A stretch of 64,000 nt of DNA, taken from positions 124,001 to 188,000 of the forward strand of contig NZ_FNIT01000004.1 in assembly GCF_900104035.1 (NCBI RefSeq). The letters run 5' to 3'. A program made the position numbers and the translations under genes. Of this stretch, positions 43,048 to 62,075 are shown in pieces (the first letter of the stretch is position 1; each line of letters starts with the position of its first letter). The stretch comes from Aureimonas jatrophae. Its GTDB lineage: Bacteria > Pseudomonadota > Alphaproteobacteria > Rhizobiales > Rhizobiaceae. Below the pieces are notes generated by a model. That model worked only from the letters and a program-made list of their open reading frames with translations. It searched no databases and was not told where the DNA came from.

Positions 43048-45756
43048 TCAGTCGGCGAGAAGCAGGGCGACGGGCAGGTCGGCGAGAAGGTCGCGCAGGA
43101 GAAGCGACGGCGCCCCGCGCACCTCCTGCAGCGTCAGGACGTTCTCGAAGCGCGCCCCGGCGATCTGCGAGGGCAGGCGGAGCGCCGTGTCGGCCCAGCG
43201 GTCGGGATCGGGCATCGGCCGCTCCGCCTTGTTGCCGAGGAGCTCATGGGCCAGGCGCGGCGCAACGGCCACCGCCACCCGCCCCTCGTCGTCGGTGCGC
43301 GCAAAGGCGACGACGTGCTGCGCCATCGGCCCGGTGACCTCGAGAGGCAGATACTTGCCCGTGGTGAAGAGGGTCGGCGCTTGTCTGCGCGCCTTGAGGG
43401 CGGCGGCCGTGAGCTTGGCCTTGACCTCGCCGTCGCGCCAGTGCGCCAGCGCCTGTTCGACCCCCTCCCCGTTCGCCATGGCGCGGGCACGCGCCTCGAA
43501 GTCGACCTTGCGGCGGTTGTCGGGGTCGACGAGGCTGAGGTCGTAGAACTCCGTGCCCTGGTAGATGTCGGGCACGCCGGGCGCCGCAAGCCGGATCAGG
43601 GTCTGCGCGAGCGAGTTGAGGGCGCCAGCCACGACGAACGGCTGCACCTCGCGCCAGAAGGCGGCGAGGAAGGACCCGGACTGGGCCGGCGAGAGCGCGG
43701 CCTCGACGAAGCTCTTCAGTGCCGCCTCGTAGTCCTCGGCCGGCGCGGTCCAGGACGTGAAGCGCTTGGCCTCGCGCACCGCCTTTTCCGCAAAGGCCTG
43801 CAGGCGCTTGGCGATGGCGGCGGCCGCCGTCTCGTCGGCGGGATCGAAGTCGGCAGGCAGAACGCCGAGCAGCGACTGGTAGAAGCCCCACTCGGTCGCC
43901 GGGTCGGGCGAGAGGCGACCGTTGCCGAGATCGACGCGGAAGCCCTTCAGGGCCTCGGCCGCACGCTCCACGATCTCGCTCCAGGCCTCTGGCGCCTCCG
44001 ACAAGGCGTAGATGCGCGCACGCGCGTCCTCGCCGCGCTTGGTGTCGTGGGTGGACAGCGCCATCAGCCCGTCGGGCTGGTCCTCCAGGCGGATCAGCAT
44101 CTGATCGTGGAAGGCCGCCGTGTCGGCGCCGTAGTGGTCCGGCTCGCCGCCGACCTCGTTCAAGGCGATCAGACGGTTGTAGCGGTAGAAGACCGTGTCC
44201 TCGACGGCCTTCGCCATGACCGCGCCGGTGGTCTGCTGGAAGCGCCGCGTGAACTTCAGGGCGCCGGTCACGTCGCGCCCGTCCTCGAAGGCGAGCTTCA
44301 GGAGGCGGCCGACGAAGGCGACGGGTTCCTGAGCCTCGACCTCACGGCCGGCCTGCGCACGTGCCACCGCCTGGTCGATCACCTCGACGTCCTTTTCCGG
44401 CACGCCGTCGACGCCGACATAGGTGCGGTAGACCGGGAGCTCGGTCGCGACCTCGACGATCGAGCGGGACAGGTCGTCGCGTCCGAAGTCGCGCGTCGAC
44501 AGGCCGCGTTCGGCGACGTTCAGGGCTTCCGTGGTCAGGACCGAGAGTTCGCCCGCAAGGTTGTGGGTGAAGATCGCGCGCTTCTGCTCGGCGATCATGG
44601 CGCGCAGGTCCTCGGTCTCGCCGACGAAGTCTTGGTAGGCGCGCGTCATCGCCTCCTCCTGGCGGCCGTCCACGAAGAGGTTGGCGACCGCCTGGATGAA
44701 CTCGTAGCCGGTGGTGCCCGCGATGTTCCACGACGTGCGCAGCCGCTCGGGGCCGGTCAGGATCTTCTCGACGTGGATGAACACGTCGCGGCGCAGCGAC
44801 TGGAAGTTCTGGTCCAGCTCGTGGAGGTAGCCCTTGGGGTCGGCGACGCCGTCCACGTGGTCGATGCGGATGCCGTCGAGCCGGCGTTCGCGCGCCAGGC
44901 GCATGATGGTCTGGTGCGACTCGCGGAAGACGCGGCGCATCTCCTGGCGAACGCCGATGAGGTCGGCGATCTCGAAGAAGCGGCGATAGGAGAGCTTCTC
45001 GCGCGCCAGGCGCCACCAGGCGAGGCGCCAGGTCTGCGCCTCGTGGAAGGCGTGGAGCGCCGCCTTGTCGGCGTTGATCGCCTCGATGCCCTTGCGCAGC
45101 GCGGCGAGGAAGGCGGGGTCGGCGACGTGCTCGGCGAAGCGCTCGCCCAGCTCCTCGCCGTCGGCCGGCACGGCCGAGGAGAAGCGGCGCACGAGCCGGT
45201 CGCGCTCCTCGTGCTCGACGAAGGCGAAGACGTGGCTGAGCGTGCGCGGATCCACCGGCAGCGTGTAGCCCGACGCCGAGAAGCGGATCTCGCGCCGCTC
45301 CTCGTCGTAGACGATGGCGAGGTCGCCGCTTTCCAGCGCCTCGCCATAGGGCTTGCCGAGCGTCGGGATCAGGATCTTCTCGGCATCCCAGGAGATGTCG
45401 AAGGTCTCGGCATGCCAGCTCTCGCGGCCCCAGCGCAGGACGTCCTCCCACCACGAGTTGCGCGGCGAGACGCCCATGTGGTTGGGCACGAAGTCGAGGA
45501 CGAGGCCGAGGTCGGCGCGGATCAGCGCGTCGCTCATCTGGTTGAAGCCGCCGTCGCCGCCCAGATCCGGCTCGAAGCGGTTGTAGTCCACGACGTCGTA
45601 GCCGTGGGTCGAACCGGCCGAGGCGGCGAAGATCGGCGAGGCGTAGAGGTGGCTCGCGCCCAGTTGCCCGAGATAGGGCACGAGGTCTTGGGCCTGCGCG
45701 AAGCCCGTCCCCTCCCGGAACTGGAGGCGGTAGGTCGCGACGAGGGGACGGCTCAT
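43048..45756 (-). CDS. treY: malto-oligosyltrehalose synthase
   Basis: This 902-residue GH13 enzyme turns the reducing-end maltose unit of a maltodextrin into a trehalosyl end. The start [14 protein letters not shown] and [21 protein letters not shown] are diagnostic for TreY. The nucleophile aspartate is in [14 protein letters not shown], the general acid region is VHVEKIL, and the third acid is in [15 protein letters not shown]. Length is slightly above the family average. It follows malQ by 31 bases. With TreZ it forms the TreYZ route from glycogen-type glucans to free trehalose, an osmotic and desiccation protectant. Confidence 0.96.
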
Positions 45757-45787
45757 GGAAACTCCGGGAAACGGAAGATGGGGAAGG

Positions 45788-47647
45788 TCAGGCGAGTTGC
45801 GGGCGTTCGTCGCGCAGTGCCCGCGCCATGGCCTGGAAGCGCTCGTCCGCGGCCAGATCCTCCAGAAGGACCTCGGAGCGGATGCGCCAGTTGGGATACT
45901 CGTCGGTCGTGCCCGGCAGGTTGGGCTGGCGTTCCGACAGGATCATGTCCTCGACCTGGACGGCAAACAGCATGGAACGGGTTCGCGCGGCGAAGCGGTG
46001 GATCGCGATGGCGAGTTCCTCGTCGAGCCGCTCGGGCAGCGGATCGCCGCCGTCGAGCAGCCCCGCCAGATGGGGCGACAGAAGGTTCTCGTGGCGCAAT
46101 GCGCCGAGCAGCGCCTTGCGGTCGCGGTCGCGCGAGGCGAGGTCGCGCGCCGTATGCGCCTCGCTCTGCCGCCCGGTCTCGGAGCGCAGCCGGATGTCGG
46201 AGCCGTGCCACCAGCCGGCGAGCGCGGCGAGGTCGTGGGTGGAGATGCAGGCGAGCGACAGTTCGGGATACTCCGTCGTCGCCTTGAAGAGCCCGTCCTC
46301 CCAACGCTCGAAGTAGAGCACCTTGTAGGACAGGATCGCCGCCTCCTCGGCCGTCTCGCGGAAGCCCTCCGGCACGGTGCCGAGGTCTTCGCCGATCACG
46401 AGGCAGTCGCGCCGCTCCGACACCTCGGCGAGCGCGTCGATCATGTCGCCGAGCGGATAGCGCACATAGCCCCCGCCAGACGAGCGCGAGGTCTCCGGGA
46501 TCCACCAGAGGCGGGCCAGCCCCATCGCGTGGTCGATGCGGATCGCGCCCGCATGGTCCATCAGGCTCTCGTAGGCGCCGACCAGCGGGGCGTAGTTCCG
46601 CTCCGCCAGCGCGTCCGGCGACAGGGGCGCCAGCCCCCAGTCCTGGCCGTCGGAGTTGAACATGTCGGGCGGCGAGCCGACGCGCGCGGCGCGCACGGTC
46701 ACCTGAGGATCCGCCCAGGTTTCCGCCCCGTCCGGCGAGACGCCGACCGCAAAATCGAGATAAAGGCCGACCGCCATGCCGGCGGCCAGGGCACGCTCCT
46801 GCGCCGCCGCCAGTTGCTGGTCGGCCAGGAACTGGAGCCACCCATGGAAGAGGACGGCGTCGACGTTCTCCCGCTCGAAGCGGCGCACCGCCTCGCCTGA
46901 GCGGTCGTGAAGCTCGGCGGGCCAATTGTGCCAGCCCGCGCCCTCGCCCGCCGCCACCCGGGCCTCGGACAGGGCCTCGAACAACGCGAAGCCCGCGAGC
47001 GCGTCCCCGCCCTTCTCCCGAAAGGCGGCGAGCGCGGGATCGCCGCGCAGGGCATCCTTCTGAACCTCGAAGAGCTCGCGGAGAAGCCGGCGCTTCAGCG
47101 TGCCGGCGGCCATGTAGTCGACGAGCTCGCCGTCCAGCCCCTCGAACAGCGCGGGCTCGGCGGCGCGCAGCGTTTCGATCGCCTCCGCGCCGCCCTCCAC
47201 CGCATCCACCGCGACGTAGAACGGGTTGATGAAGCGGCGCGTCGAGGGAGAATACGGGCTGTAGCGGCCGGGATCGGCCATAAACAAGGCGTGCATCGGG
47301 TTGACGCCGACGAAGTCCGCGCCGACCGCCGCCGCGATCTCGGCGAGGTGGCCGAGGTCGGCGAAGTCGCCCAGACCCAGCGAGCGCCGCGAGCGCAGCG
47401 CGTAGAGCTGGCACGTCACGCCCCAGCGCCGCTGCCCGCGCACGCGCTCCGGCAGGGCGCAGCGCCGGCGCGGCGCGTGCTGAAGCTCGGCAAAGCGCCC
47501 CCGCTCGCCGCTCTCGGGGTCCACCCGCAGGGCCTGGAGAAGGGCGCCTTGAGCTTCGGCGTCGATCGCCATGGGCTCGCCCATCTCGGAGCGATAGCGA
47601 ACCTGGATGCCGTGGCTCTCCGCCAGTTGCTCCAGCCGCTCACTCAT
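45788..47647 (-). CDS. malQ: 4-alpha-glucanotransferase
   Basis: This 619-residue GH77 enzyme (amylomaltase) moves glucan segments between maltodextrins. Motifs present are GVNPMHALFMADPGRYSPYS, the nucleophile aspartate in IRIDHAMGLARLWWIP, the acid in CLVIGEDLGTVPEGFR and STHDLAALAGWW. The start overlaps the treZ stop by eight bases and treY follows, so it probably lengthens short maltodextrins left by TreYZ so that they can be used again. The first 60 residues are variable, as in many MalQ proteins. Confidence 0.95.
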   Translation of the reverse strand: MSERLEQLAESHGIQVRYRSEMGEPMAIDAEAQGALLQALRVDPESGERGRFAELQHAPRRRCALPERVRGQRRWGVTCQLYALRSRRSLGLGDFADLGHLAEIAAAVGADFVGVNPMHALFMADPGRYSPYSPSTRRFINPFYVAVDAVEGGAEAIETLRAAEPALFEGLDGELVDYMAAGTLKRRLLRELFEVQKDALRGDPALAAFREKGGDALAGFALFEALSEARVAAGEGAGWHNWPAELHDRSGEAVRRFERENVDAVLFHGWLQFLADQQLAAAQERALAAGMAVGLYLDFAVGVSPDGAETWADPQVTVRAARVGSPPDMFNSDGQDWGLAPLSPDALAERNYAPLVGAYESLMDHAGAIRIDHAMGLARLWWIPETSRSSGGGYVRYPLGDMIDALAEVSERRDCLVIGEDLGTVPEGFRETAEEAAILSYKVLYFERWEDGLFKATTEYPELSLACISTHDLAALAGWWHGSDIRLRSETGRQSEAHTARDLASRDRDRKALLGALRHENLLSPHLAGLLDGGDPLPERLDEELAIAIHRFAARTRSMLFAVQVEDMILSERQPNLPGTTDEYPNWRIRSEVLLEDLAADERFQAMARALRDERPQLA

Positions 47648-49556
47648 CGCCCAGGCCCTGCACCAGGACGCGGTCCGACAGAAGCGCCAGAACCGTCCAG
47701 GACGGCATGGCGCCGTTGCCGACGTGCTCCACCACGTCCTTGTGGTTGGCGTAGACGGCCTCGGCCGAGCCGATCGCGGGATCCAGCAGTCCGTTCTCGA
47801 TCTCCCAGGGGTCGTCCGAGAGGTTGGCGAACAGGTGGTAGAAGCGGCCGGGCTGCAGTTCCCAGACCACGCAGAAGGCCCGCTCCTCCACGAGCGCCAT
47901 GCCGCAGTCGCCCTTCACCCCGTCGAGCAGCGGGAAGAGCACCTCCTGGCGGATATGGAGGAGCTTCGTCGTGACCTGAAGCCGGCGCTTGTGGATCGGC
48001 TGGAGGAGCTGCGACCAGTCGAGACGCGAAATCTCGAAGGTCATGTCGTCGTTGGGGTCGGGGAAGATCTTCTGCGCGTCCTCGTCCTCGAAGGCGGCGA
48101 AGCTCTTGAACTCGCGGCGCCGGCCCTTCGACACGGCGTTGGCGAGTTCGCCGTCGAAGTCCGTGAAGAAGCAGAAGGAGTTGCAGTCGCCGAACTCGTC
48201 GCCCTGGAACATCAGCGGGATCTGGGGCGACAAGAGCAGGATGGCCTGGAGGCAGTCGTAGGACCGGGCCGAGGCGAGCGAGCGCAGGCGGTCGCCGAAG
48301 GCCCGGTTGCCGATCTGGTCGTGGTTCTGAATGAAGTTCACGAAGGCGGTGGGCGGCAGGCTCGCCGAGGCCGTGCCGACGTCGCGCTCGCGATGGTCGG
48401 AATACTGACCCTGGAACACGAAGCCGGTGGCGAGCGCGGTCGCCATCTGCTCGGTCGAGTGCGGGTCGTAGTCGCGATAGTAGCTCTCGCGGTCGTTGGT
48501 CCCGATCACATGGGCGCAGTGGTGGAAGTCGTCGTTCCACTCGCCCGAGACGAGCGGGATCGAGCCGTCCTCGTTGCGGTCGATGTGCCAGACGATGTTG
48601 CGGTCGTCCTCGGTGGTGATGTGGACGTGGCGGTCGGTCACCACCTCGCGCACGCGGGCGGCCAGCTCCTTCACGAGCGGCGTGTCGGTCGTGTCCTTGA
48701 TGGAGTCGATCGCGTCGAGCCGCAGGCCGTCGATGCGGTACTCCTGCATCCAGTAGAGCGCGTTCTGGATCATGAACTCGCGCACCGGCGTCTCGTCATA
48801 GGCGATCGCCGCGCCCCAGGGCGTGTTGATCTCCTGGTGAAAGAACTCCGGCACGTAGGCCGGCAGGTAGTTCCCGTCCGGCCCGAAGTGGTTGTAGACC
48901 ACGTCGAGGAAGACCATGAGCCCGCGCTCGTGCGCGGCGTCCACCAGCTTCTTCAGCCCCTCCGGCCCGCCATAGGCCTGGTGCGGGGCATACAGCAGAA
49001 CCCCGTCGTAGCCCCAGCCGCGCTGGCCGCCGAACTGGGCGACCGGCATGATCTCGATCGCGGTGATGCCGCTATCGCGCAGGTGGTCGAGCTTGGCGAT
49101 CGCCGACTCGAACGTGCCCTCCGGCGTGAACGTGCCCACATGCAGCTCGTAGAAGACGCACTCGTGCCAAGGGCGTCCCTTCCAGCCGCCGGTGCGCCAG
49201 CGATAGGCGGCGGGATCGACGAGGCGCGACAGCCAGTGGACGTCGCCGCCTTGGGCGCGCGCGGCCGGATCGGGATAGGTCTTGTCGCCCTCGAAGCGGA
49301 ATCCGTAGAACTGGTCGGGCTCGGCCTGGGTCTCGACCTCCCACCAGCCGTCCTCGCCCTTTTGGAGGGGGTGGAAGCTGTCGGGCTTGGCCGCCTCGTC
49401 GCTGGCGAGCGCCAGTTCCACCGCGCCCGCGCTCGGTGCCCAGATGCGAAAGCGTGTTCCCTCCGGCCGGTAGGTCGCGCCCCAGTGCGTCTCGAAGCTG
49501 AACGTGTTCTCGGCCGGCGCATGGCCGGCGGCCGTGTCCCCGTAAGCGGTGTCCAT
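47640..49556 (-). CDS. treZ: malto-oligosyltrehalose trehalohydrolase
   Basis: This 638-residue GH13 enzyme releases trehalose from malto-oligosyltrehalose. An N-terminal beta-domain (FRIWAPSAGAVELAL) precedes the barrel. ELHVGTFTPEGTFESAI and PVAQFGGQRGWGYDGVLLYA are typical of TreZ rather than GlgX or GlgB. The nucleophile aspartate is in IDGLRLDAIDSI, the acid in VHITTEDDRN, and FIQNHDQIGNRAFGDRL holds the third acid. ATG 49556 is used; GAAGGGG lies about ten bases upstream. It is the first gene of a five-gene operon. No EcfG-type promoter was found directly upstream. Confidence 0.95.
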   Translation of the reverse strand: MDTAYGDTAAGHAPAENTFSFETHWGATYRPEGTRFRIWAPSAGAVELALASDEAAKPDSFHPLQKGEDGWWEVETQAEPDQFYGFRFEGDKTYPDPAARAQGGDVHWLSRLVDPAAYRWRTGGWKGRPWHECVFYELHVGTFTPEGTFESAIAKLDHLRDSGITAIEIMPVAQFGGQRGWGYDGVLLYAPHQAYGGPEGLKKLVDAAHERGLMVFLDVVYNHFGPDGNYLPAYVPEFFHQEINTPWGAAIAYDETPVREFMIQNALYWMQEYRIDGLRLDAIDSIKDTTDTPLVKELAARVREVVTDRHVHITTEDDRNIVWHIDRNEDGSIPLVSGEWNDDFHHCAHVIGTNDRESYYRDYDPHSTEQMATALATGFVFQGQYSDHRERDVGTASASLPPTAFVNFIQNHDQIGNRAFGDRLRSLASARSYDCLQAILLLSPQIPLMFQGDEFGDCNSFCFFTDFDGELANAVSKGRRREFKSFAAFEDEDAQKIFPDPNDDMTFEISRLDWSQLLQPIHKRRLQVTTKLLHIRQEVLFPLLDGVKGDCGMALVEERAFCVVWELQPGRFYHLFANLSDDPWEIENGLLDPAIGSAEAVYANHKDVVEHVGNGAMPSWTVLALLSDRVLVQGLGDE

Positions 49557-49708
49557 GAGTTGTCGCCCCTTCCGTCTCATTCCAAAAAGCCGAGAGACCT
49601 CCCGCACGCCGTCCCGTCCGGCGTCCGCGCGAGGCTTAACTGGAGCAGGTCACGCCGCCGGCAGGGGCGCGCGCCCGCGTTATTTCCTCAAGCGCCCAAA
49701 CGGTTTTT

Positions 49709-50827
49709 TCAGGCCGCCACGGCGCCGGGGGCGGCAGGCGTTTCCGCCGCCGTCACGGCGTTGCCGACGCGCCCGTGGACGAGATCGTGGATGAAGCCGA
49801 GCTTGCGGATCACCGTGCGCGACAGGACGAACGGGTAGAGGTCGCTGAGGCCCATGGCGCGGTTCATCGAGTTCAGCGCCTGGCTGAGCGCCAGCCAGGC
49901 GTCGGCGATCTCCTCGATCGTGGTCGCCGCGTCGTAGACCTTGAAGTCGAGCTCGGTGGTGAGGATGCCGTCGCGGTCGAGGCGCGGGTGGATCGTCATG
50001 CCGTAGGAGCCGCCGACCTCCAGCGTGTCGACGATGTGGAGATAGTGGGCCCAGGTCTCGGCGAAGTCCTCCCAGGGGTGGGAGCCGGCATAGGAGGACA
50101 CGTACTCCTCCTGCCAGCCGGGCTTGGGACCGTTGGCGTAGTGCGCCTGGAGCGCCTGGCCGTAGTCGATCCGGTCGTCGCCGAAGATCGCGCGGCACGC
50201 GTCGAGCGCTCCACCGTCGCGCACCAGCATGTCCCAGTACCAGTGGCCGACCTCGTGGCGGAAATGGCCGAGCAGCGTGCGATAGGGCTCGCCCATGGCG
50301 TTCCGCCGCGTTTCGCGCTCCACGTCGTCGGCCTCGGCGAGCGCCACGGTCACGATGCCCTCGTCATGGCCGGTCATGACCTTGACGCCGGCCGCCGGGT
50401 CGTCGGCCAGGAACTTGAAGCCGAGACCCTCGGGGTGCTCGGCGCGCGTCCACAGCGGCAGCTTGAGCCGCAGGAGCGTGTAGAACATGCGGTGCTTGGC
50501 GGCCTCCATCTTGCCCCACAGCGCCTGGTTGGCGGGGTCGGAGAGGTCGGGCACCATGAGGTTGTGCCGGTCCGCGAGGCATAGAAGGTCGGCGCTTTCG
50601 GCGGGAATCAGCCAATTGCACACGCCGTAGCGGTGGTTGTCGCAATAGCGCCAGCGATCGGCGCGCTGGCCGCCGCGCTCGACGGAGACGAAAGCGTCGC
50701 CATCCACCTCCAGCGCCAGCATGCGGTTGCCGCGCGGCTCGTAACCCAACGTATGGCCGCAGCGCTCGCAGCGGATATTGTCGAAGAACACGACCTGATC
50801 GCAGGCCGGGCAGGAGAACAGCTTCAT
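49709..50827 (-). CDS. zinc-ribbon putative metallopeptidase (COG4307-like)
   Basis: This 372-residue protein has an N-terminal zinc ribbon (CPACDQ and CERCG, residues 6-24) and a metallopeptidase-like domain with HEVGH at residues 191-195. YVSSYAGSHPWEDFAETWAHY is a further family signature, where Glu and His could be ligands. It lacks a signal peptide. Relatives occur next to transglutaminase and ATP-grasp genes, as here, where it diverges from such a cassette across 211 bases. A GGAAC-N16-AGTT element precedes it. A role as maturation or release peptidase for the cassette product is a guess based on context. Confidence 0.85.
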   Translation of the reverse strand: MKLFSCPACDQVVFFDNIRCERCGHTLGYEPRGNRMLALEVDGDAFVSVERGGQRADRWRYCDNHRYGVCNWLIPAESADLLCLADRHNLMVPDLSDPANQALWGKMEAAKHRMFYTLLRLKLPLWTRAEHPEGLGFKFLADDPAAGVKVMTGHDEGIVTVALAEADDVERETRRNAMGEPYRTLLGHFRHEVGHWYWDMLVRDGGALDACRAIFGDDRIDYGQALQAHYANGPKPGWQEEYVSSYAGSHPWEDFAETWAHYLHIVDTLEVGGSYGMTIHPRLDRDGILTTELDFKVYDAATTIEEIADAWLALSQALNSMNRAMGLSDLYPFVLSRTVIRKLGFIHDLVHGRVGNAVTAAETPAAPGAVAA

Positions 50828-50874
50828 GGCAACGCTCTTGGGTGCGGCGCGGAAAAACGGGAGATCGTTGCGCT

Positions 50875-50899
50875 AACTGTGCCGACGCTCCCAGGTTCC
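50875..50899 (-). promoter_or_regulatory. putative EcfG-type promoter (GGAAC-N16-AGTT)
   Basis: On the reverse strand GGAAC (50899-50895) is followed by 16 bases and AGTT (50878-50875). The GTT core matches; the first base differs from CGTT. Predicted transcription starts about 40 bases before the metallopeptidase ATG, in the region shared with the divergent cassette. Confidence 0.45.
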
Positions 50900-51038
50900 C
50901 GACCGCGCCACGCTTTGCCGCCGCGACGCCTGCTGCCTGTTTCGCGCGCATTCTACACCGGTGCGACGGTTGTGTGCGGCGCGGGAGCGGCTATGGTCTG
51001 GCCTCAAGTCCTCCCCTGCCCCCAGCCGATGGACACGC

Positions 51039-54000
51039 ATGCCGGTTCTCGCCGCCCTCCGCCACCTGACGCACTACCGCTACGACCGCCCCGTGCGCCT
51101 CGGACCGCAGACCGTGCGCCTGCGCCCCGCACCCCATTCGCGCACCCGCACGCCCGCCTACAGCCTCCATGTCGAGCCGGCCGGCCATTTCCTGAACTGG
51201 CAGCAGGATCCGTTCGGCAACTGGCTGGCACGGCTCGTCTTTCCCGAGCCGGTGCGCGAGCTGCGCATCGAGGTCGACCTTCTGGCCGACATGACGGTCT
51301 ACAACCCGTTCGACTTCTTCGTGGAGGACGCGGCCGAGACCTTTCCGTTCACCTACGACGCCGAGCTCGGGGCGGATCTGGCGCCGTATCTCGCCCATGA
51401 CATGGCGGAGCCGCGTCTTCAGCAGTTTCTCAAAGGGGTCGACCGGACCCCGCGCCGCAGCGTCGACTTCCTGATCGATCTCAACCGCCACGTAGCGAGC
51501 GAGATCAGCTACCTCATTCGCATGGAGCCCGGCGTTCAGACGCCTGAGGAGACGCTGGAGAAGCGTTCGGGCTCGTGCCGTGACTCCACCTGGCTCCTTG
51601 TCCAGGCGTTGCGCCACCTCGGCATCGCCGCGCGTTTCACCTCGGGCTACCTCATCCAGCTGAAACCCGATGTCGTGGCGCTGGACGGTCCGGCCGGCAC
51701 GGCGCACGACTTCTGCGACCTCCACGCTTGGGCCGAGGCCTTCCTGCCCGGTGCGGGCTGGATCGGCCTCGACCCGACCTCCGGCCTTCTCACCGGCGAG
51801 AGCCATGTGCCGCTCGCCTCCACCCCGCACTACCGCTCGGCCGCGCCGATCGCGGGCGGCGTCGAGCCGGCCGAGACGACCTTCGACTTCGCCATGGAGG
51901 TGCAGCGCCTGCGCGAGGAGCCGCGCGTCACCAAGCCCTTCTCGGACGAGAGCTGGCAGGCGCTCGACGCGATGGGCCAAAAGGTGGACGCCGACCTTCA
52001 AGCCATGGATGTGCGCCTGACCATGGGCGGCGAGCCGACCTTCGTCTCGGTGGACGACTTCGAGGCGCCCGAATGGAATGCCGACGCGACGGGCCCCGCC
52101 AAGCGCGGCCTGGCCGACACGCTCCTGCGTCGGCTCCAGCAGCGCTTCGCACCGGGCGGCTTCCTCCACCACGGCCAGGGCAAGTGGTATCCCGGCGAAA
52201 CGCTGCCGCGCTGGACCTACTCGATCTACTGGCGGCGCGACGGCGAGCCGATCTGGCGCGACCCGGCGCTGGTCGCCGGCGAGGCGCCGGGCGCGGACGC
52301 GCCGCCCGCGACGGTCGAGAAGGCGCAGCATATTCTAGAGAGTGTCGCCACGCGCCTCGGGCTCGACCCCGCCAACGCCCTGCCCGCCTTCGAGGACCCG
52401 ACCTACTTCGTGGCGCGCGAGGCCAAGCTCCCGGTCAACGTCTCGCCCGCCGACTCCCAGCTCGAGGATCCCGAGGAGCGCCAGCGTCTCGCGCGCGTCT
52501 TCGACCGGGGCCTCAGCCAGCCGGTCGGCGCGGTGCTGCCCGTGCAGCCCTGGCAGGCCGACGGACGGCGCTGGCTGTCGGAACGCTGGCGCACGCGCCG
52601 CGGCCACCTCTTTCTCGTGCCCGGCGACAGCGCGCTCGGCTATCGACTGCCGCTGTCCTCGCTGCCGCACCTGCCGCCTGCCCTTTATCCCTATACCCAC
52701 CCGGCCGACCCGCAGCAGTCCTTCCCGCCCCTGCCGCCGCGTGCCGCGCTCGGGCAGACGCAGCCGCGCATCGACACGGCCGACGCCGAACGCTGGCAGG
52801 CGCCGGCCACCGCCGCCGACACCGAGATCGCCGGCCACGTGCGCACCGCGCTCGCGGTCGAGCCGCGCGACGGCGTCCTCCACGTCTTCATGCCCCCGGT
52901 GGAACGGGTCGAGGATTACCTGGAGCTCCTGGCGGCGGTGGAGGCGGCGGCCGCCGAGCACCGGCTGCCGCTTCGCATCGAGGGCTACGCGCCGCCCTTC
53001 GACCCGCGCCTCGACGTCATCCGCGTCGCGCCCGATCCCGGCGTCGTCGAGGTCAACGTCCACCCCGCGCACAGCTGGGACGAGGCGGTCGCCATCACCA
53101 CCGGCGTCTACGAGGACGCGCGTCATTCGCGGCTCGGCACCGACAAGTTCATGGTGGACGGGCGGCACGCGGGAACCGGCGGCGGCAATCACGTCGTGCT
53201 CGGCGGCCAAACGCCCGCCGACTCGCCCTTCCTGCGCCGGCCCGACCTCCTGAAGTCGCTGATCCTCACCTGGCAGCGCCACCCCTCGCTGAGCTACCTC
53301 TTCTCGGGGCTCTTCGTCGGCCCGACGAGCCAGGCGCCGCGCGTCGACGAGGCGCGCCACGACGCGCTCTACGAGCTCGAGATCGCGATGGCGAACGTGC
53401 CGCCGCCCGGCGAGGGCGAGCCGCCCGCCCCCTGGCTGGTAGACCGCCTGTTCCGCAACCTTCTGGCCGACGTCACCGGCAACACGCACCGCTCCGAGAT
53501 CTGTATCGACAAGCTCTACTCGCCGGACGGACCGACCGGGCGGCTCGGCCTCGTCGAGTTCCGCGGCTTCGAGATGCCGCCGCACGCGCGCATGAGCCTG
53601 GCCCAGCAGCTCTTGATCCGCGCTCTCGTCGCCAAGCTCTGGCGCGAACCCGCCTCGGGCCGGCTCGCGCGCTGGGGCACGCAGCTTCACGACCGCTTCA
53701 TGCTGCCCGCCTTTGTCTGGGCCGACTTCCTCGACGTCCTCGCCGAGCTCGGTGAGGCCGGCTATTCCCTGCGGCCCGAATGGTTCGAGGCGCAGGCCGA
53801 GTTCCGCTTTCCCTTCTGCGGGCGCGTCGCGCTGGAGGGCGGCGTCTCGCTGGAACTCCATCAGGCGCTGGAGCCGTGGCACGTCATGGGCGAGACCGGG
53901 GCGATCGGCGGTACCGTGCGCTTCGTCGACTCCTCGGTGGAGCGCCTCCAAGCCAGACTCGATGGTTTCGATCCCTCGCGCCATCGCCTCGTCTGCAACG

Positions 54001-54365
54001 GCCGCACCGTGCCGCTGACGGCCACCGGCCGGGTCGGCGAGGCGGTGGGCGGCGTGCGCTTCAAGGCTTGGGCCCCGGCCTCCGGCCTCCACCCGACGAT
54101 CCCCGTCCATGCGCCGCTGACCTTCGACCTCTATGATCTTTGGAACGGGCGCTCGCTCGGCGGCTGCCGCTACCATACGGCCCATCCCGGCGGGCGGGCC
54201 TACGACACGTTCCCGGTGAACGGCTACGAGGCCGAGGCGCGGCGCCTCGCGCGCTTCGAGGAGATCGGCCATACCGCCGGCCGCTTCGCGCCCCCGCCCG
54301 AGTTGCCCGACCCGAACTTTCCGCTGACGCTGGACCTGCGCCGGCCCGCCTCCCTTGCGCTCTGA
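51039..54365 (+). CDS. transglutaminase-like / DUF2126 fusion protein
   Basis: This 1108-residue cytoplasmic protein begins with a transglutaminase N-terminal domain ([18 protein letters not shown]) and a papain-like core with Cys180 (GSCRDSTW), His229 ([11 protein letters not shown]) and Asp245 (LDPTSG). From about residue 325 onward is the DUF2126 region. Its segments [31 protein letters not shown] and [19 protein letters not shown] resemble the acid and arginine clusters of glutamine-synthetase/GCS-type ligases; that is a resemblance, not proof. Such proteins are common in proteobacteria with unknown product. ATG 51039 starts the conserved part. The next gene overlaps by 11 bases. Confidence 0.88.
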
Positions 54366-56724
54366 TCGTCTCGCCCGCGCGCCGGCCGCGGGAAACCCGC
54401 TTCTCGACGGCTATGCGCCTCCGTCCGGCGCGTTCGACGAGATGCGTGGGGCGGACGGCATGGTTCGGCCGCATTACCGCTCGCTGATCGCGGCACTGGG
54501 CGCGCTGGCGCCGGAGGAGCGCGAACGACGGCTTGGCTCGGCCGCCCAGTACCTTCGCGAAGCCGGCGTCTTCTACCGCGCAGGCGGCGAGACCGGCGAG
54601 CGGCAATGGCCGCTGGCCGTTCCGCCCTTGATCCTCGCCCCCGAGGAATGGCGGGCGCTGGAGCGGGATCTCAAGGCGCGAGCGCATTACCTGGAAGCCC
54701 TTCTGGCCGATCTCTACGGTTCGCGCCGGCTGGTGCGCGAGGGCGTCCTGCCCGGTCGGCTGCTCGGTTCCAACCCCGAGTTCCTGCGCCCGCTCGCGAA
54801 CCAGGCGCTCGGCGGCCGCCCGCTTCTCGGCTTTCTCGCGATCGACCTGCGGCGCGACGCGAACGGTCGGTGGCACGCGGTCGCGGACCGGACGCAGGCG
54901 CCGTCCGGCGCCGGCTTCGCGCTGGAGAACCGCGTCGCCACCGCGCGGGCCCTGCCGGATCTCGCCAAGGCGCACCGCCTGCGGCGCCTGGCCGGTTTCT
55001 TCACGCGCTTTCGCGATACGCTCGACGCGTTGGGCGGGCGCACCGAGGGTGGCGGGCGGCCCGGTCTCCTGACGCCCGGTCCCTCCAACGAGACCTATTT
55101 CGAGCACAGCTATCTCGCCCGCTATCTCGGACTTCAGCTTCTCGAGGGCGGCGACCTCGCCGTCCACGGCGACGAGGCGCGGGTGCGCACCGTGGAAGGG
55201 CTGCGGCCGATCTCGGTGCTCTGGCGCCGCATGGATGCGGACTGGACCGATCCTCTGGAACTCAAGTCGCGCTCGCGGCTCGGCACGCCCGGCCTCGTGC
55301 GCGCCGTTCGCGCGGGCCACGTCCACCTCGTCAACGCGCTCGGGTCGGGGCTGGCCGAGACGCCCGCCTTTGCCGCCTTCGAGGACGCGATGGCCCGTCA
55401 CCTGACCGGCGAACCGCTGGCGCTTGCCGCGCCCGAGACGCTGTGGCTCGGCGACGCGAGCGCGCGCGAGCGGTCGCAGGACGCCGGTTGGCGCATCATC
55501 GAGGGCTTTCCGGGACAGGCCGAGACGGCCGTTCGCACCTCCGGCGAGGAGCGATGGGCGGAGCTTGCCGCGCGGCGCGTTCTGCCCGCGTCCACGACGC
55601 CGGTCTTGGAGGAGGGGCGCCTCGTGCCGCGCCCGGTCACGTTGCGCGTCTTTTTGGCCCGCAGCGCGGCAGGATGGGAGGTCATGCCGGGTGGCTTTGC
55701 GCGAGCCGCCCCCCGCTCCGGCTCCGACGTCGAGGCTATCGCGGCCGGCGGGCGCTCGCTCGACGTCTGGATCGCGGCCGAGGAAGAGGAGCGCCCCGTC
55801 ACGCTTCTGGGCCAGGCGACGGGCGACTTCCAGCGGCGCCTGCCGGGATCCCTGCCCTCTCGCGCGGCCGACAACCTGTTCTGGCTCGGCCGCTCGGTGG
55901 AGCGGCTGGAGGCGGCGGTGCGTCTGTGGCGCGCCTCGCTGGTGGCCGATGCGCCGTCCGGCGCGCTGGCCGCCGCGCGCGCCGCGCTTCTGGCGCGCTC
56001 GGGCGTGGGCGCGGCCGACGAGGACGCGGCGCTCGGTCTTCGTCACCTCGCACGGGGCGCCTACGACATCGCCTCGCGCATTCGCGACCGCTTTTCGCCG
56101 GACGGCTGGCGCGTGCTTCACGAGATCGTGGAGGTTCTCGACGAGGCGGTGGCCGGGTCGAAGGGGCGCGACGACGACGTACTCGCCGATCGCCTGCTGA
56201 CGCGCCTTGCCGGCTTCTCGGGTCTCGTCGGCGAGAACATGGTGCGCCTGTCGGGCTGGCGCTTCCTCCAGTGCGGACGCCGCCTGGAGCGTGGGATGCT
56301 GGCGGCGGAGGTGGGAGCGGCCTTTCTGGCGGTCGAGGACGAGGGCGTGCTCGACGCGCTGCTCGACTACGCCGACAGCCGCATGACCTATCGGCGCCGG
56401 TTCTCGGTGGAGCTGTCCGCGCCCAGCGTCCTTGACCTCGTGGCGCTCGATCCGCTCAACCCGCGCTCGGTCGCCTATCAGGTCGAGGCCCTGCGCGAGC
56501 TTCTGGCCCAGATGCCGGGCAACCGACCCGGCGAGAGCCTCGATCCGCCCTCGCGCCGCGCTGCGCGCCTCAAGGTCCGTCTCGAAACGGCGCTGCCGGC
56601 CGAGGTGAACGCGGCCTGGCTCGCACGCATCGCCCGCGACCTCGCCGACATCTCCGACCTTCTGACGGAGCGCTTCTTTGCCGCCGAGCCGGAGGGCGCG
56701 ATCGAGCGCTGGGAGGCCGAATGA
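54355..56724 (+). CDS. circularly permuted ATP-grasp / alpha-E domain fusion
   Basis: This 789-residue protein fuses two parts that are often separate genes. The N-terminal circularly permuted ATP-grasp enzyme (to about residue 475) has [29 protein letters not shown]-site elements [19 protein letters not shown] and LHSRSR-like basic residues ([14 protein letters not shown]). The C-terminal alpha-E domain (about 500-789) is all-helical and starts [24 protein letters not shown]-grasp enzymes of this type are predicted to form peptide bonds. TTG 54355, overlapping the preceding stop, is the only start upstream of the conserved N-terminus. It is translationally coupled to both neighbours. Confidence 0.87.
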
Positions 56725-57617
56725 CGGTGCGCTACCGCATCCACCTCCATATCGGCTACGGCTATCGCGGCCAGGTCAAGGACGCCCGCCATGTCCTGCG
56801 CGTCACACCGCGCGAGAATGCGGGCCAGCGCGCCGAGAGCGTGCGCATCGACATCGCACCGCGTCCCGCCGAGATCGAGACAGAGCCCGACTTCTTCGGC
56901 AACGCCACCGACCACCTTCTGATCCGCGAACCGCACGCCGCGCTCGCGGTCGACGCCCGCCTCGTGGTGGCGGTCGACCGGCCTGCCCCCGATCTCGCAG
57001 CGACGCCCGACCTTTCCACCCTGCGCTCGGCGGCCGCGGCCTCGTGCGAGAGCGAGGGCGACGGACCGATCCACTTCCTGGGTGCCGGACGCCTCGTCGA
57101 GCCCGCGCCGGCCGTGGGGCGCTATCTCGCGCAAGCGCTGGACGCGGCCCGGCCGGCCGGCGAGACGATGCTGGAGATTTCGCGCCGCATCCGGACCGAG
57201 TTCCGATTCGCACCGGGGGTCTCCACCGTCTCGACCCGCGTCGAGGAAACCTTCGAGCGCCGAGCCGGGGTGTGCCAGGATTTCGCCCATCTTCTGATCG
57301 CGGGCCTGCGCGCCCTGGATATTCCGGCCCGTTACGCCAGCGGCTTCCTGCGCACCCTTCCACCGCCCGGCAAGCCGCGGCTGGCGGGCGCCGACGCCAT
57401 GCATGCGTGGGTCGAGGTCTGGCTCGGCGAGAAGGCCGGCTGGATCGGCTTCGATCCGACCAACGCCTGCCTCGCGCTGGAGGATCACGTGCTCGTCGCG
57501 GTGGGGCGCGACTATGCCGACGTCGCGCCGATCGACGGCGTCCTGATGACGTCCGGCCCGCAGCGCACGCGCCACAGCGTCGACATGGTGGCGCTCGAGG
57601 AGACGGTCGCGGCGTGA
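56721..57617 (+). CDS. transglutaminase-like family protein
   Basis: This 298-residue protein has an N-terminal beta-domain and a papain-like transglutaminase core. The catalytic triad is Cys185 (GVCQDFAHLLIAGLRAL), His228 (MHAWVEVWLG) and Asp245 (GFDPTN). There is no signal peptide, so it acts in the cytoplasm, most likely as a peptidase or amide-bond-forming enzyme on a small peptide. It overlaps the ATP-grasp/alpha-E gene by ATGA and closes the three-gene cassette. It shares domain type with the N-terminus of the first gene but is clearly divergent, so two distinct thiol enzymes are encoded. Confidence 0.9.
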   Translation: MTVRYRIHLHIGYGYRGQVKDARHVLRVTPRENAGQRAESVRIDIAPRPAEIETEPDFFGNATDHLLIREPHAALAVDARLVVAVDRPAPDLAATPDLSTLRSAAAASCESEGDGPIHFLGAGRLVEPAPAVGRYLAQALDAARPAGETMLEISRRIRTEFRFAPGVSTVSTRVEETFERRAGVCQDFAHLLIAGLRALDIPARYASGFLRTLPPPGKPRLAGADAMHAWVEVWLGEKAGWIGFDPTNACLALEDHVLVAVGRDYADVAPIDGVLMTSGPQRTRHSVDMVALEETVAA

Positions 57618-57721: not shown

Positions 57722-58876
57722 ATGTCGGGCGAGGTACCGATCCTTTATTTCCTGATCGTGGGGACGGCCATGGTCGCGGGGGCGCTCACCTTATGGGAGC
57801 GCCATGCCACGACGACGCACCGCGCGCCGCTCGCCTGGTGGGCCACCGGCTATTTCATGATCGCCGCCGGCTGCATCCTGCGCATCGTGCCGAACGTCCC
57901 GCACGAGATCGTCATCGGCCTCTCCAACGTTCTGGTGACCTGGGGCTACGGAGCCGTCATCGCCGGTCAGTACCGCTTTCTCGGTCGGGCGCTGCCGCTT
58001 GTTCTGCCGGTCGGCCTCCTGATCGCGACCATTCTGTGGGTCGCGTTCGGTCAGTATCAATCGATGAACGACCGGATCGTGATGACATCGCTCGCCTCGG
58101 GCTCGATCTGCTGGATCGGCTGCGCGATCCTGGCGCGGTCCTGGCGGGAAGCGGACACCGCCCTGCGCGCCCAGCGCCTGGCCTCGGTCCTGATGGCGAT
58201 CCATGCCGGCTTCTTCTTCGTGCGAGCGGGATCGACGCTCTTCAGCAGCGATGCGGTCGCGCGCTGGGGACCGGACGTGACCATCACGATGTTCGAAGGC
58301 ATCTTGTGGTCCTTCGCCGGTCCCGCGACGCTTCTGACCATGGTGCGCGAGCAGCGCGAGAATCGGCACGAGGCCGCGTCCAGCACCGACTTCCTGACCG
58401 GCCTCGACAACCGCCGCGCCTTCTTCGGAAAGGGCGAGGCGATCGTGTCCGGCGATCAGGCCGGCGCCCTTCTCGTCTTCGACCTCGACCACTTCAAGCG
58501 CATCAACGACACGTTCGGGCATGGCATCGGCGACGAGATGCTGCAGCTCTTCAGCCGCATCGCCCAGCGGGAGATGCGCGGCGTCGACGTTCTGGCCCGG
58601 CTGGGCGGCGAGGAGTTCGCGGCGCTCCTGCCCGGTCTGGACGCGAGCGAGGCAGAAGCGGTGGCACGGCGCGTGGCGCGCTCGCTCGAGGCCACAGCGC
58701 TCGACCGGCCCGGCGCGGCGCCGGTCCGGGCCACGGTGAGCGTCGGCGTCGCGATGTTCGACCCCCGCGAGCCGGCGGTCCTGGCTGCGATTCTGGCCGC
58801 CGCCGACCGGGCGCTCTACCGGGCCAAGCGCGAGGGGCGGAACCGCATCGAGCGCGCGGTTCCCCTGGCCGCCTGA
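57722..58876 (+). CDS. membrane-anchored diguanylate cyclase (GGDEF) with I-site
   Basis: This 384-residue protein makes c-di-GMP. About six or seven hydrophobic segments occupy residues 1-205, then the GGDEF domain follows with TDFLTGLDNRRAFF, FDLDHFKRINDTFGHGIGD and the active loop LGGEEF. The inhibitory site RGVD lies exactly five residues before GGEEF, so feedback control by c-di-GMP is expected. AAGCAGGA precedes ATG 57722. It follows the transglutaminase gene by 104 bases and converges on an aldo/keto reductase gene. The sensed signal is unknown. Confidence 0.92.
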   Translation: MSGEVPILYFLIVGTAMVAGALTLWERHATTTHRAPLAWWATGYFMIAAGCILRIVPNVPHEIVIGLSNVLVTWGYGAVIAGQYRFLGRALPLVLPVGLLIATILWVAFGQYQSMNDRIVMTSLASGSICWIGCAILARSWREADTALRAQRLASVLMAIHAGFFFVRAGSTLFSSDAVARWGPDVTITMFEGILWSFAGPATLLTMVREQRENRHEAASSTDFLTGLDNRRAFFGKGEAIVSGDQAGALLVFDLDHFKRINDTFGHGIGDEMLQLFSRIAQREMRGVDVLARLGGEEFAALLPGLDASEAEAVARRVARSLEATALDRPGAAPVRATVSVGVAMFDPREPAVLAAILAAADRALYRAKREGRNRIERAVPLAA

Positions 58877-59852: not shown

Positions 59853-62075
59853 TTAGGCCACGCGAGGCGCTTCGCCGGGCACGAGCACGATGGTCGAAAG
59901 CGGTGGCAGCGACAGCGACAGCGAGAAGGGCCGGCCGTTGGCGTGGACCTCCTCAGCCTGCGCGCCGCCCATGTTGCCGACGTTGGAGCCGCCGTAGATC
60001 TCGGCGTCCGTGTTCATCGCCTCGGCCCAGAAGCCGCCGTGCGGCACGCCGATGCGGTAGCCGTGGTGGACGTTGGGCGTGAAGTTGCAGACCACGAGCG
60101 CCGTGCCGCCGTTCCGGTCCTTGCGCAGGTAGGCCAGGACCGACTGCTCGACGTTCGACGTGTCGACCCACTCGAAGCCATGCGGGTCGCAGTCGTTCTC
60201 GTGAAGCGCCGGCAGGCCGCGATAGAGCGTATTGAGGTCGCGCACGAGGCGCTGGACGCCGGAATGCTCACGGTGTTCGAGAAGGTGCCAGTCGAGCGAC
60301 TGGTCGTGGTTCCATTCCGCCGACTGGCCGAACTCGCCGCCCATGAACAGGAGCTTCTTGCCCGGGTGGGTCCACATGAAGCCATAGTAGGCGCGCAGGT
60401 TCGCGAACTTCTGCCACCAGTCGCCCGGCATCTTGCCGAGGATCGAGCCCTTTCCGTAGACGACCTCGTCGTGGGAGAGCGGCAGGACGAAGTTCTCGGA
60501 ATACGCATACACCATGCCGAAGGTCATGTGGTGCATGTGGTACTTCCGGTTGATCGGATCCTCCTGCATGAAGTGCAGCGTGTCGTGCATCCAGCCCATG
60601 TTCCACTTGAAGTGGAAGCCGAGACCCCCGGCATAGGTTGGGCGCGACACGTTCGGGAAGGAGGTCGACTCCTCGGCATGGGTCGTGGCGTTGGGGTAAA
60701 GGCCGCCGACCTTCTCGTTGGTCTCCTTCAGGAAGGCCATGGCCTCGAGGTTCTCGCGCCCCCCATAGATGTTGGGCTCCCATTCGCCGTGGTTGCGCGA
60801 GTAGTCGAGGTAGAGCATCGAGGCCACCGCATCGACGCGCAAACCGTCGACGTGGAACTGGTCGAGCCAGTAGAGGCCGTTGGCGACCAGGAAGTTCTTC
60901 ACCTCGGTCCGCCCGTAGTCGTAGATCAGCGTGTTCCAGTCCTTGTGGAAGCCACGACGCGGGTCGGCATGCTCGTAGAGGGCGGTGCCGTCGAAGCGTC
61001 CGAGTCCATGGACGTCGGTCGGGAAGTGGCCGGGCACCCAGTCGAGCAGCACGCCGATATCGGCCTGGTGCAGGGCGTCGACGAGGCGTGCGAAGCCCGC
61101 CGGATCGCCGAAGCGCGCGGTGGGCGCGAAGAGGCCGATCGGCTGGTAGCCCCAGGAGCCGTAGAACGGGTGCTCGGAGACCGGCATGAACTCGACATGC
61201 GTGAAACCCATCTCCTGGATGTAGGGGACGAGCTCGCGCGCCAACGCGTCGTAGTCGAGGAAGGTGTCGCCGTCGCCGCGCCGCCAGGAGCCCAGATGCA
61301 CCTCGTAGATCGAGACCGGCTTGGAGGCATCCTGCCAGTCGGACGGCTTGGCCTGAAAGGCGCTGTCGCGCCACTCGTGCTGGACGAGGCCATCGACGAT
61401 CGAGGCGGTGGAAGGGGCGAGCTCCTGCCGGAAGCCCACGGGATCGGCCTTGAGCGGCAGGATCTCGCCATGCGCGCCGATGATCTCGTACTTGTAGACC
61501 TCGCCGCGCTTCAGCCCCGGGATGAAGATCTCGAAGACGCCGGCCTCGATGCGCTTGCGGCAGACGTGCCGACGCCCGTCCCAGGCGTTGAAGTTGCCGA
61601 CCACCGACACGCGCCGGGCATTGGGAGCCCAGACCGCGAAGCTGACGCCCTCCACCCCGTCCATCATGGCGGGATGGGCGCCGAACTTCTCATAGAGCCG
61701 GTAATGCGTGCCCTCCGCCATGAGGTAGGCGTCGAAGTCGGAGATCACGGTGCCGAAGCGGTAGGTATCCTCCTCCTGCCAGCTATCGCCGCCGTGGCGG
61801 AACAGGAAGCGGTAGGCCGGGGCGTCGTGGGCAAGCGTGCCCGTGAAAAGGCCGGGCACGTCCCCGGCCTCCATGCGGCCGAGCGAGCGGCCGCGCTCGT
61901 CCACGAGTTCCGCCGCCTCGGCACCCGGCCGGTAGGCGCGCACCGTCCAGCCCTCGGCATGGCGGTGGCGCCCGAGCACCGAGAACGGGTTCTCGTGCCG
62001 ACCGGCGGCGAGCGCGCGGGCCTCGTCGCCGTGGAGCCGGTGGTCGACGCGCGCGGTGGCTCGGGTCTCGCTCAT
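59853..62075 (-). CDS. glgB: 1,4-alpha-glucan branching enzyme
   Basis: This 740-residue GH13 enzyme introduces alpha-1,6 branches into glycogen. An N-terminal carbohydrate-binding module (residues 25-115, [12 protein letters not shown]) precedes the second ([19 protein letters not shown]) and the catalytic barrel. The nucleophile aspartate is in [17 protein letters not shown], the acid in [14 protein letters not shown] and the third acid in [14 protein letters not shown]. It overlaps the TreS-maltokinase gene by ATGA. Together with that fusion, and a GlgE that would be expected just outside the window, it would make alpha-glucan from trehalose. Confidence 0.96.

Follow-up and report, generated by a model that had tools for sequence, protein, structure and literature searches.

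The DUF2126 cassette of Aureimonas jatrophae accompanies a previously predicted ATP-grasp/alpha-E system and carries a fused ATP-grasp domain lacking the canonical catalytic residues

In 2009, Iyer, Abhiman, Burroughs, and Aravind reportedly predicted a system for peptide ligation or tagging that comprises a circularly permuted (CP) ATP-grasp protein, a glutamine synthetase (GS)-like ligase, an alpha-E protein, a transglutaminase, and Anbu, a peptidase of the NTN fold. Here we analyze a cassette of four genes, encoding a zinc peptidase (Mx), a transglutaminase joined to a DUF2126 region (TG1-DUF2126), an ATP-grasp::alpha-E fusion, and a second transglutaminase (TG2), in a 64,000-nucleotide stretch of DNA from Aureimonas jatrophae (contig NZ_FNIT01000004.1, positions 124,001 to 188,000; hereafter the window). 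An earlier note on this DNA had called the cassette the most likely undescribed system in the window, which is too strong because the system had already been predicted in 2009; permuted ATP-grasp, a putatively GS-like ligase, alpha-E, transglutaminase, and NTN-fold peptidase are common to both. The parts here lie on two contigs, and the ATP-grasp of the cassette is devoid of catalytic residues and Mx is attached. Moreover, the CP-ATP-grasp/alpha-E/transglutaminase/Anbu system is treated in two papers that both cite Iyer 2009 (PMC5666114 and PMC6376114; papers given by PMC accession are drawn on throughout as excerpts), and the induction of relatives under nitrogen limitation has been published (PMC5491218, PMC7801951, PMC8050072). 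The system is of an already predicted, biochemically uncharacterised kind and is widespread. The literature surveyed names no product, in keeping with the statement of the same note that none is established; in this search, which did not extend to most subscription papers or to the 2009 paper, neither a product nor a phrase match for an inactive or degenerate ATP-grasp was found, and the word DUF2126 occurred in none of the papers.

Among the described relatives, the Anbu operon of Pseudomonas putida (PP_2685-2688) and Yersinia bercovieri consists of standalone ATP-grasp, alpha-E, transglutaminase, and Anbu genes and contains, as described in the excerpts, neither DUF2126 nor a fusion (PMC5666114, PMC6376114). 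In Burkholderia cenocepacia, the cluster I35_5080-5083 encodes a DUF404/DUF407 protein (5080), a DUF403 protein (5081), a transglutaminase-like protein (5082), and a "large protein containing transglutaminase-like domain" (5083) (PMC5491218), corresponding to ATP-grasp, alpha-E, transglutaminase, and a large transglutaminase protein; we equate this cluster, by gene order only, with the DUF2126 operon. In B. arboris (L229), tblastn gave the order standalone ATP-grasp, alpha-E, transglutaminase (weak, 26%), DUF2126, fusion, and transglutaminase. Because this gene order matches, I35_5083 is very probably the DUF2126 protein. The features of the A. jatrophae cassette, in window coordinates, are as follows.

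49709..50827, minus strand: zinc-ribbon metallopeptidase Mx (PF10005 Zn_ribbon_DZR_6, E 3.9e-27; PF15887 Peptidase_Mx, E 2.2e-101)
50828..51038, no strand: spacer between the two divergent genes, 211 bp with a DUF2126 start at 51039, presumed promoter region (from the sequence)
51039..54365 (longest form 50961-54365), plus strand: TG1-DUF2126 gene (Bact_transglu_N, Transglut_core, and DUF2126, PF09899, 1307 bits); transglutaminase at about residues 1-293, DUF2126 amidoligase-like region at about residues 294-1108
54355..56724, plus strand: ATP-grasp::alpha-E fusion (CP_ATPgrasp_2, PF14403, 8.2e-104; Alpha-E, PF04168, 1.6e-52); circularly permuted ATP-grasp fold without catalytic residues at about residues 26-474, alpha-E at about residues 500-775
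56721..57617, plus strand: second transglutaminase-like enzyme TG2 (Bact_transglu_N and Transglut_core; Cys185-His228-Asp245)

Coordinates of the open reading frames (ORFs) show that successive forward genes share 11 and 4 bases and that the Mx gene is divergent; together with the Pfam matches, they bear out the four genes, positions, and domains given in the earlier note. Mycobacterium tuberculosis Rv2566-Rv2569c may comprise the same four genes. None of the four cassette proteins matched NCBIfam at E 0.001. The TG1-DUF2126 gene likely starts at ATG 51039 (Met27), and not at the longest-listed GTG 50961, because homologues at 52 of 80 loci align only from residue 25-29 of the long form onward, those at the other 28 aligning from an earlier residue. 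A Kyte-Doolittle scan of the cassette proteins gave neither a hydrophobic leader nor a membrane segment, and the proteins are apparently cytoplasmic, as had been proposed.

In this genome the cassette makes up just one half of the system; the other is found on a second contig (C13), where a standalone CP-ATP-grasp with intact motifs is encoded with an alpha-E protein (PF04168) and an Anbu-type proteasome-like protein (PF00227, E 1.6e-7) that is absent from the window cassette. Three of the four Anbu-operon genes are found there; no transglutaminase was matched in this stretch of C13, and the only two Bact_transglu_N genes of the genome are those of the cassette. In the genus, exactly two such genes occur in 16 of 21 genomes and three in the other 5. 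Among 200 genomes of the phylum, DUF2126 was found in 63 and alpha-E in 112, and every one of the 63 DUF2126 genomes had a standalone alpha-E (sorted by eye on score and frame length, with partial matches in G107 and G117). A control genome of Synechococcus elongatus likewise gave matches to DUF2126 and alpha-E. The hypergeometric probability of the DUF2126/alpha-E co-occurrence was 2e-21, calculated with all 112 alpha-E genomes and with phylogeny ignored. Furthermore, in 30 DUF2126 loci with wide flanks, hand-picked from the 63-genome set mostly as one per genus, the standalone ATP-grasp/alpha-E pair lay within the same stretch of about 14-20 kb in 18. From the standalone alpha-E in all 63 genomes and the pair in the same stretch in these 18 loci, we conclude that the standalone ATP-grasp/alpha-E system is the base to which the DUF2126 cassette is added as a module.

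The cassette itself is conserved and co-inherited across lineages, supporting the earlier picture of a ligase-like DUF2126 and a metallopeptidase alongside two enzymes of the transglutaminase type. Among the best 80 of 591 loci confirmed by retrieval with the DUF2126 protein, the fusion was matched over at least 740 residues in 66, TG2 over at least 270 residues in 67, and Mx over at least 300 residues in 7, some of these contigs stopping within the cassette. In the window's genus, DUF2126 with the adjoining fusion and a divergent Mx 120-225 bp away is present in all 21 genomes. Three other DUF2126 loci (L117, L118, and L120) have no adjoining fused ATP-grasp::alpha-E, and L117 and L120 have the standalone pair and Anbu nearby. 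Mangrovicella endophytica (L038:13357-14705) retains DUF2126 and Mx, with no fusion or TG2 match on the stretch.

The fused ATP-grasp keeps its fold and has lost its catalytic residues. A structural model of the fusion (mean predicted local distance difference test (pLDDT) score, 86.2; predicted template modelling (pTM) score, 0.85) matched, by Foldseek, 3N6X, a putative glutathionylspermidine synthase from Methylobacillus flagellatus with the same permuted ATP-grasp fold (E 2.8e-24, 29% identity), and human glutathione synthetase 2HGS (E 3.1e-10). The alpha-E half gave no Foldseek match beyond those of the ATP-grasp half (best others E 0.12 or worse), and therefore no function is read from its fold. 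In ATP-grasp enzymes, E-x-N-x-R, a Lys, and a Gly-rich loop are the Mg2+/ATP residues. The standalone ATP-grasp and 3N6X carry LEDNxRTPSG and VVKEVxGSGGYG, and 3N6X retains both core motifs (EDNxR and KEVxGSGGYG), whereas the window fusion diverges at the first and lacks the glycine loop altogether. When 99 fused proteins (98 and the window's) were aligned with 21 standalone paralogues (20 and the own-genome C13 copy), all 21 standalone proteins proved to have the Glu, Asn, Arg, and Lys as well as the glycine loop; in the fused ones, Asn and the glycine loop are found in 0 of 99, Glu and Arg in 1 of 99 each, and the aligned Lys, whose column falls in a poorly alignable stretch, in 5 of 99. The 98 derive from 106 loci with a match, after truncated copies (L063, L077, and L103) and standalone ones (L051, L117, L120, L143, and L144) had been dropped. 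The replacements are themselves conserved, Asn being changed to Arg in 91 and Arg to Gln in 88 of the 99 proteins. A pattern search of two fused copies outside this set (L229 and L230) found no E-x-N motif and no glycine loop, an Arg near the R position being retained in L230. In a tree of 41 fused and 21 standalone rows, the two groups were split by one branch with a support of 100/100; L139 and L149 form long branches, that of L149 being very long. In L149 (5956-11692; genome G126, without a DUF2126 match), a fused ATP-grasp::alpha-E adjoins a standalone pair.

The fused ATP-grasp is therefore a maintained protein, since its ratio of nonsynonymous to synonymous substitution rates (dN/dS) indicates purifying selection, being 0.17 over 495 codons against the nearest congener and 0.12-0.26 in three other pairs (for comparison, 0.07-0.17 for DUF2126). 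It is probably not a canonical ligase and is most simply taken as a pseudoenzyme; alternatively, its altered site may serve a different ligand or reaction. Of the permuted ATP-grasp::alpha-E fusion seen in the earlier note, the fold and domains stand, and the ATP-grasp catalytic residues are lost in the 99 copies counted.

In the other cassette proteins, the conserved residues hold. Numbered from ATG 51039 and with the window protein counted in, the triad Cys180/His229/Asp245 of TG1 is present in 111 of 111 aligned sequences; in TG2, numbered likewise from ATG 56721, Cys185 and His228 are present in 97 of 97 and Asp245 in 96 of 97 (one gap), which confirms the two papain-like enzymes with intact Cys-His-Asp triads noted earlier. 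The DUF2126 alignment of 111 sequences has 264 columns identical in at least 110, the near-invariant positions including E332, the GQGKWYPGE block, E671-V-N673, H718, R768, N815-T-H-R818, and E840-x-R842. In Foldseek searches with the AlphaFold2 model of the DUF2126 protein (mean pLDDT 73.9, pTM 0.66), the N-terminus matched transglutaminases, and the other matches among the 50 listed were papain-like/transferase folds, a few flagellar-doublet chains, one Cascade chain, and, weakly, the GS/GCS-type proteins GmaS (9qur and 7cqn; E 0.07) and YbdK (1r8g; E 0.14). DUF2126 is plausibly a ligase, in agreement with its Pfam label of putative amidoligase.

The Mx protein has an N-terminal C-x2-C...C-x2-C ribbon, HFRHEVGH, and WEDFAETWAHYLH; the window protein, with HEVGH and WEDFAETWAH, contains both the HExxH zinc motif and the distal Glu. 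In an alignment of 23 sequences, the distal Glu257 is present in all and the HExxH Glu in 22. The Mx of Aurantimonas marianensis (L034:8736-9803) reads HVVGH, which reflects either an error of sequencing or a genuine loss of the catalytic Glu. Across homologues, catalytic residues are accordingly kept in both transglutaminases and in Mx, DUF2126 is strongly conserved, and the fused ATP-grasp has lost all but stray single residues. Among the 29 of 200 genomes that carry Mx, 28 also have alpha-E and 19 have DUF2126, and in 10 of the 29 no more than 10 kb separates Mx from DUF2126 or alpha-E (coordinates compared by eye). It is divergent to DUF2126 in the window, in Aurantimonas, and on a Caballeronia plasmid, and adjoins standalone alpha-E/Anbu in two further loci (L143 and L144). 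Mx is a recurrent but optional partner of the system in several lineages.

The condition in which the system may act is suggested by its relatives. In an ntrC mutant of B. cenocepacia H111, the expression of I35_5080-5083 was 6- to 9.4-fold lower, and the cluster is among the common sigma-54/NtrC targets under nitrogen limitation (PMC5491218). In P. putida, PP_2686-2688 were 11- to 37-fold up under nitrogen limitation across wild-type, relA/spoT, and rpoN strains (PMC7801951), and PP_2685 and PP_2688 were higher on nitrate than on ammonium (PMC8050072). By analogy, the cassette would be under nitrogen control in A. jatrophae as well. The arrangement differs from that in B. cenocepacia, where one cluster is under NtrC/sigma-54, in that there are two loci here without a visible sigma-54 site. 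Two further papers were set aside: the excerpt of a Caulobacter NtrC paper deals with HvyA, which is homologous to transglutaminases but whose membership of this family is unproven, and the ATP-grasp domain protein with a sigma-54-type site in a Bradyrhizobium RpoN paper is not identifiable with the system.

Collectively, we tentatively favor, at somewhat less than an even chance, a larger cytoplasmic system that ligates and recycles an amide or peptide under nitrogen limitation and of which the cassette forms the DUF2126 module. ATP would be used by DUF2126 and by the standalone ATP-grasp, with the fusion as their pseudoenzyme partner. When nitrogen is limiting, the intact C13 ATP-grasp and the GS-like DUF2126 would spend ATP to form the amide bonds of a small peptide or conjugate; the ATP-grasp::alpha-E fusion, no longer capable of canonical ATP binding, would be a pseudoenzyme that scaffolds the system or binds the substrate. 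Transfer or hydrolysis of the amide would fall to the two papain-like transglutaminases, and Anbu and/or the zinc peptidase would degrade or trim the product and give the nitrogen back. We infer the ligase role of DUF2126, the ligated substrate, and the direction of flux in this scheme.

Several observations weigh against this reading. As to the ligase, the GS-type Foldseek matches of DUF2126 are weak (E 0.07 or worse), and profile-profile comparison by hhalign with GS and GCS2 sets from relatives, made with shallow alignments, was not significant, so that proof of a GS fold by this route was given up; the comparison with GS/GCS folds proposed in the earlier note yielded the weak GmaS and YbdK matches and no profile support. 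As to the partners, a third transglutaminase gene lies elsewhere in 5 of the 21 genus genomes, and Anbu was found in only 35 of the 63 DUF2126 genomes (one protein query, misses possible) and was rejected as an obligate DUF2126 partner. Co-occurrence of the four families, also proposed earlier, is strong for three and partial for Mx, which is found in only 19 of the 63. In Y. bercovieri, neither peptidase activity of Anbu nor a specific interaction of the operon proteins was detected (PMC6376114). As to the control, the rpoN mutant of P. putida still induces PP_2686-2688 14- to 20-fold, which speaks against strict sigma-54 control there, and across the strains PP_2685 (Anbu) is only 1.1-, 4.8-, and 1.5-fold up (PMC7801951). 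In the window, 51 sigma-54-type matches were found with 53 expected, none above chance, and the one at 50827 is broken in its -12 element; the idea of a sigma-54 promoter for the cassette thus gained no support. The C13 locus gave 16 matches with 15.3 expected, likewise none above chance. Among homologues, excluding L149 (no DUF2126) and L131 and L135 (no standalone ATP-grasp), the DUF2126 gene is preceded by a site with no more than one mismatch in 2 of 109 loci (0.54 expected). For the standalone ATP-grasp, 15 of 21 loci were unusable; of the 6 others, 3, all of them related, have such a site (0.08 expected). With at most two mismatches, the counts are 11 of 109 (4.6 expected) for DUF2126 and 4 of 6 (0.48 expected) for the standalone ATP-grasp.

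The chief alternative, possible but rather unlikely, is nitrogen-scavenging amide catabolism, in which the ligases would gamma-glutamylate or activate an amine or amide and the papain-like enzymes and peptidases would free ammonia or glutamate, as in amine utilisation of the GmaS/PuuA type, with no product being built. The NtrC regulon of B. cenocepacia also holds urease and urea and amino-acid transporters (PMC5491218), and GmaS (gamma-glutamylmethylamide synthetase) is the top-ranked GS-type structural match of the DUF2126 protein; however, GmaS is merely a GS-fold protein, and a weak match to it indicates no substrate. Moreover, outside the three cassette genes, the neighbor clusters reach at most 18 of 77 long loci (45 largest clusters listed, most unannotated), and therefore the cassette has no transporter or amine-catabolic gene that always accompanies it.

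Distinctly less probable is protein tagging and de-tagging, in which a peptide would be put on cellular proteins under stress and taken off by Anbu and Mx. Two ligase-type folds and peptidases of unrelated folds do occur within one system, but no tag gene or tagged protein is known to us, the neighbor comparisons having covered ORFs of at least 90-100 amino acids. Tagging is offered as a hypothesis in PMC6376114, the same paper that detected no peptidase activity of Anbu. Finally, an osmolyte or desiccation-related dipeptide pathway, tied here to trehalose and glycogen genes in the window (treZ (TIGR02402) with treY and malQ, both identified by eye, at 43048-49607 in the same direction as Mx, and glgB at 59853-62075), to Mx flanked by MalQ and TreZ matches in four loci (three of Aurantimonas and that of Mangrovicella), all of which except L034, whose stretch stops before it, also have GlgB further along, and to a phosphorylase-glgB pair downstream in Rhizobium-type loci, is very improbable, because TreZ, MalQ, and GlgB matches are absent from the 40 loci L113-L152 and the link was observed in only part of Hyphomicrobiales, for which reason a general trehalose/glycogen link was rejected. 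In P. putida, treY stands in the same nitrogen-sensitive table as the Anbu operon (PMC8050072). In the window, the treZ/malQ/treY run lies directly downstream of the Mx gene with a gap of 101 bp, and a gene for a GGDEF diguanylate cyclase (57722-58876) lies immediately downstream of the cassette; a GGDEF match also adjoins the cassette in Mangrovicella (L038, after DUF2126) and in Aurantimonas endophytica (L035).

Returning to ligation and recycling under nitrogen limitation, a bolder form of this reading, which we regard as doubtful, would be a conjugation machine induced by nitrogen limitation in which the standalone ATP-grasp and DUF2126 are both true ligases and a conserved pseudo-ATP-grasp::alpha-E subunit presents the substrate or serves as scaffold; the conjugate would be recycled by the transglutaminases, Anbu, and the zincin Mx. 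If true, this machine would parallel, in bacteria, the tagging systems that combine a ligase, a pseudo-ligase, and a protease. The product may also be removed by the zinc peptidase, which is found again next to the system in distant lineages. Once it is clear which domain is still able to use ATP, an experimenter can choose the protein to assay and handle the other as its partner, and the tie of a DUF2126 operon to nitrogen limitation, made by gene order only, suggests the condition in which to seek the product. These findings turn a gene-neighborhood prediction into a small set of direct tests.

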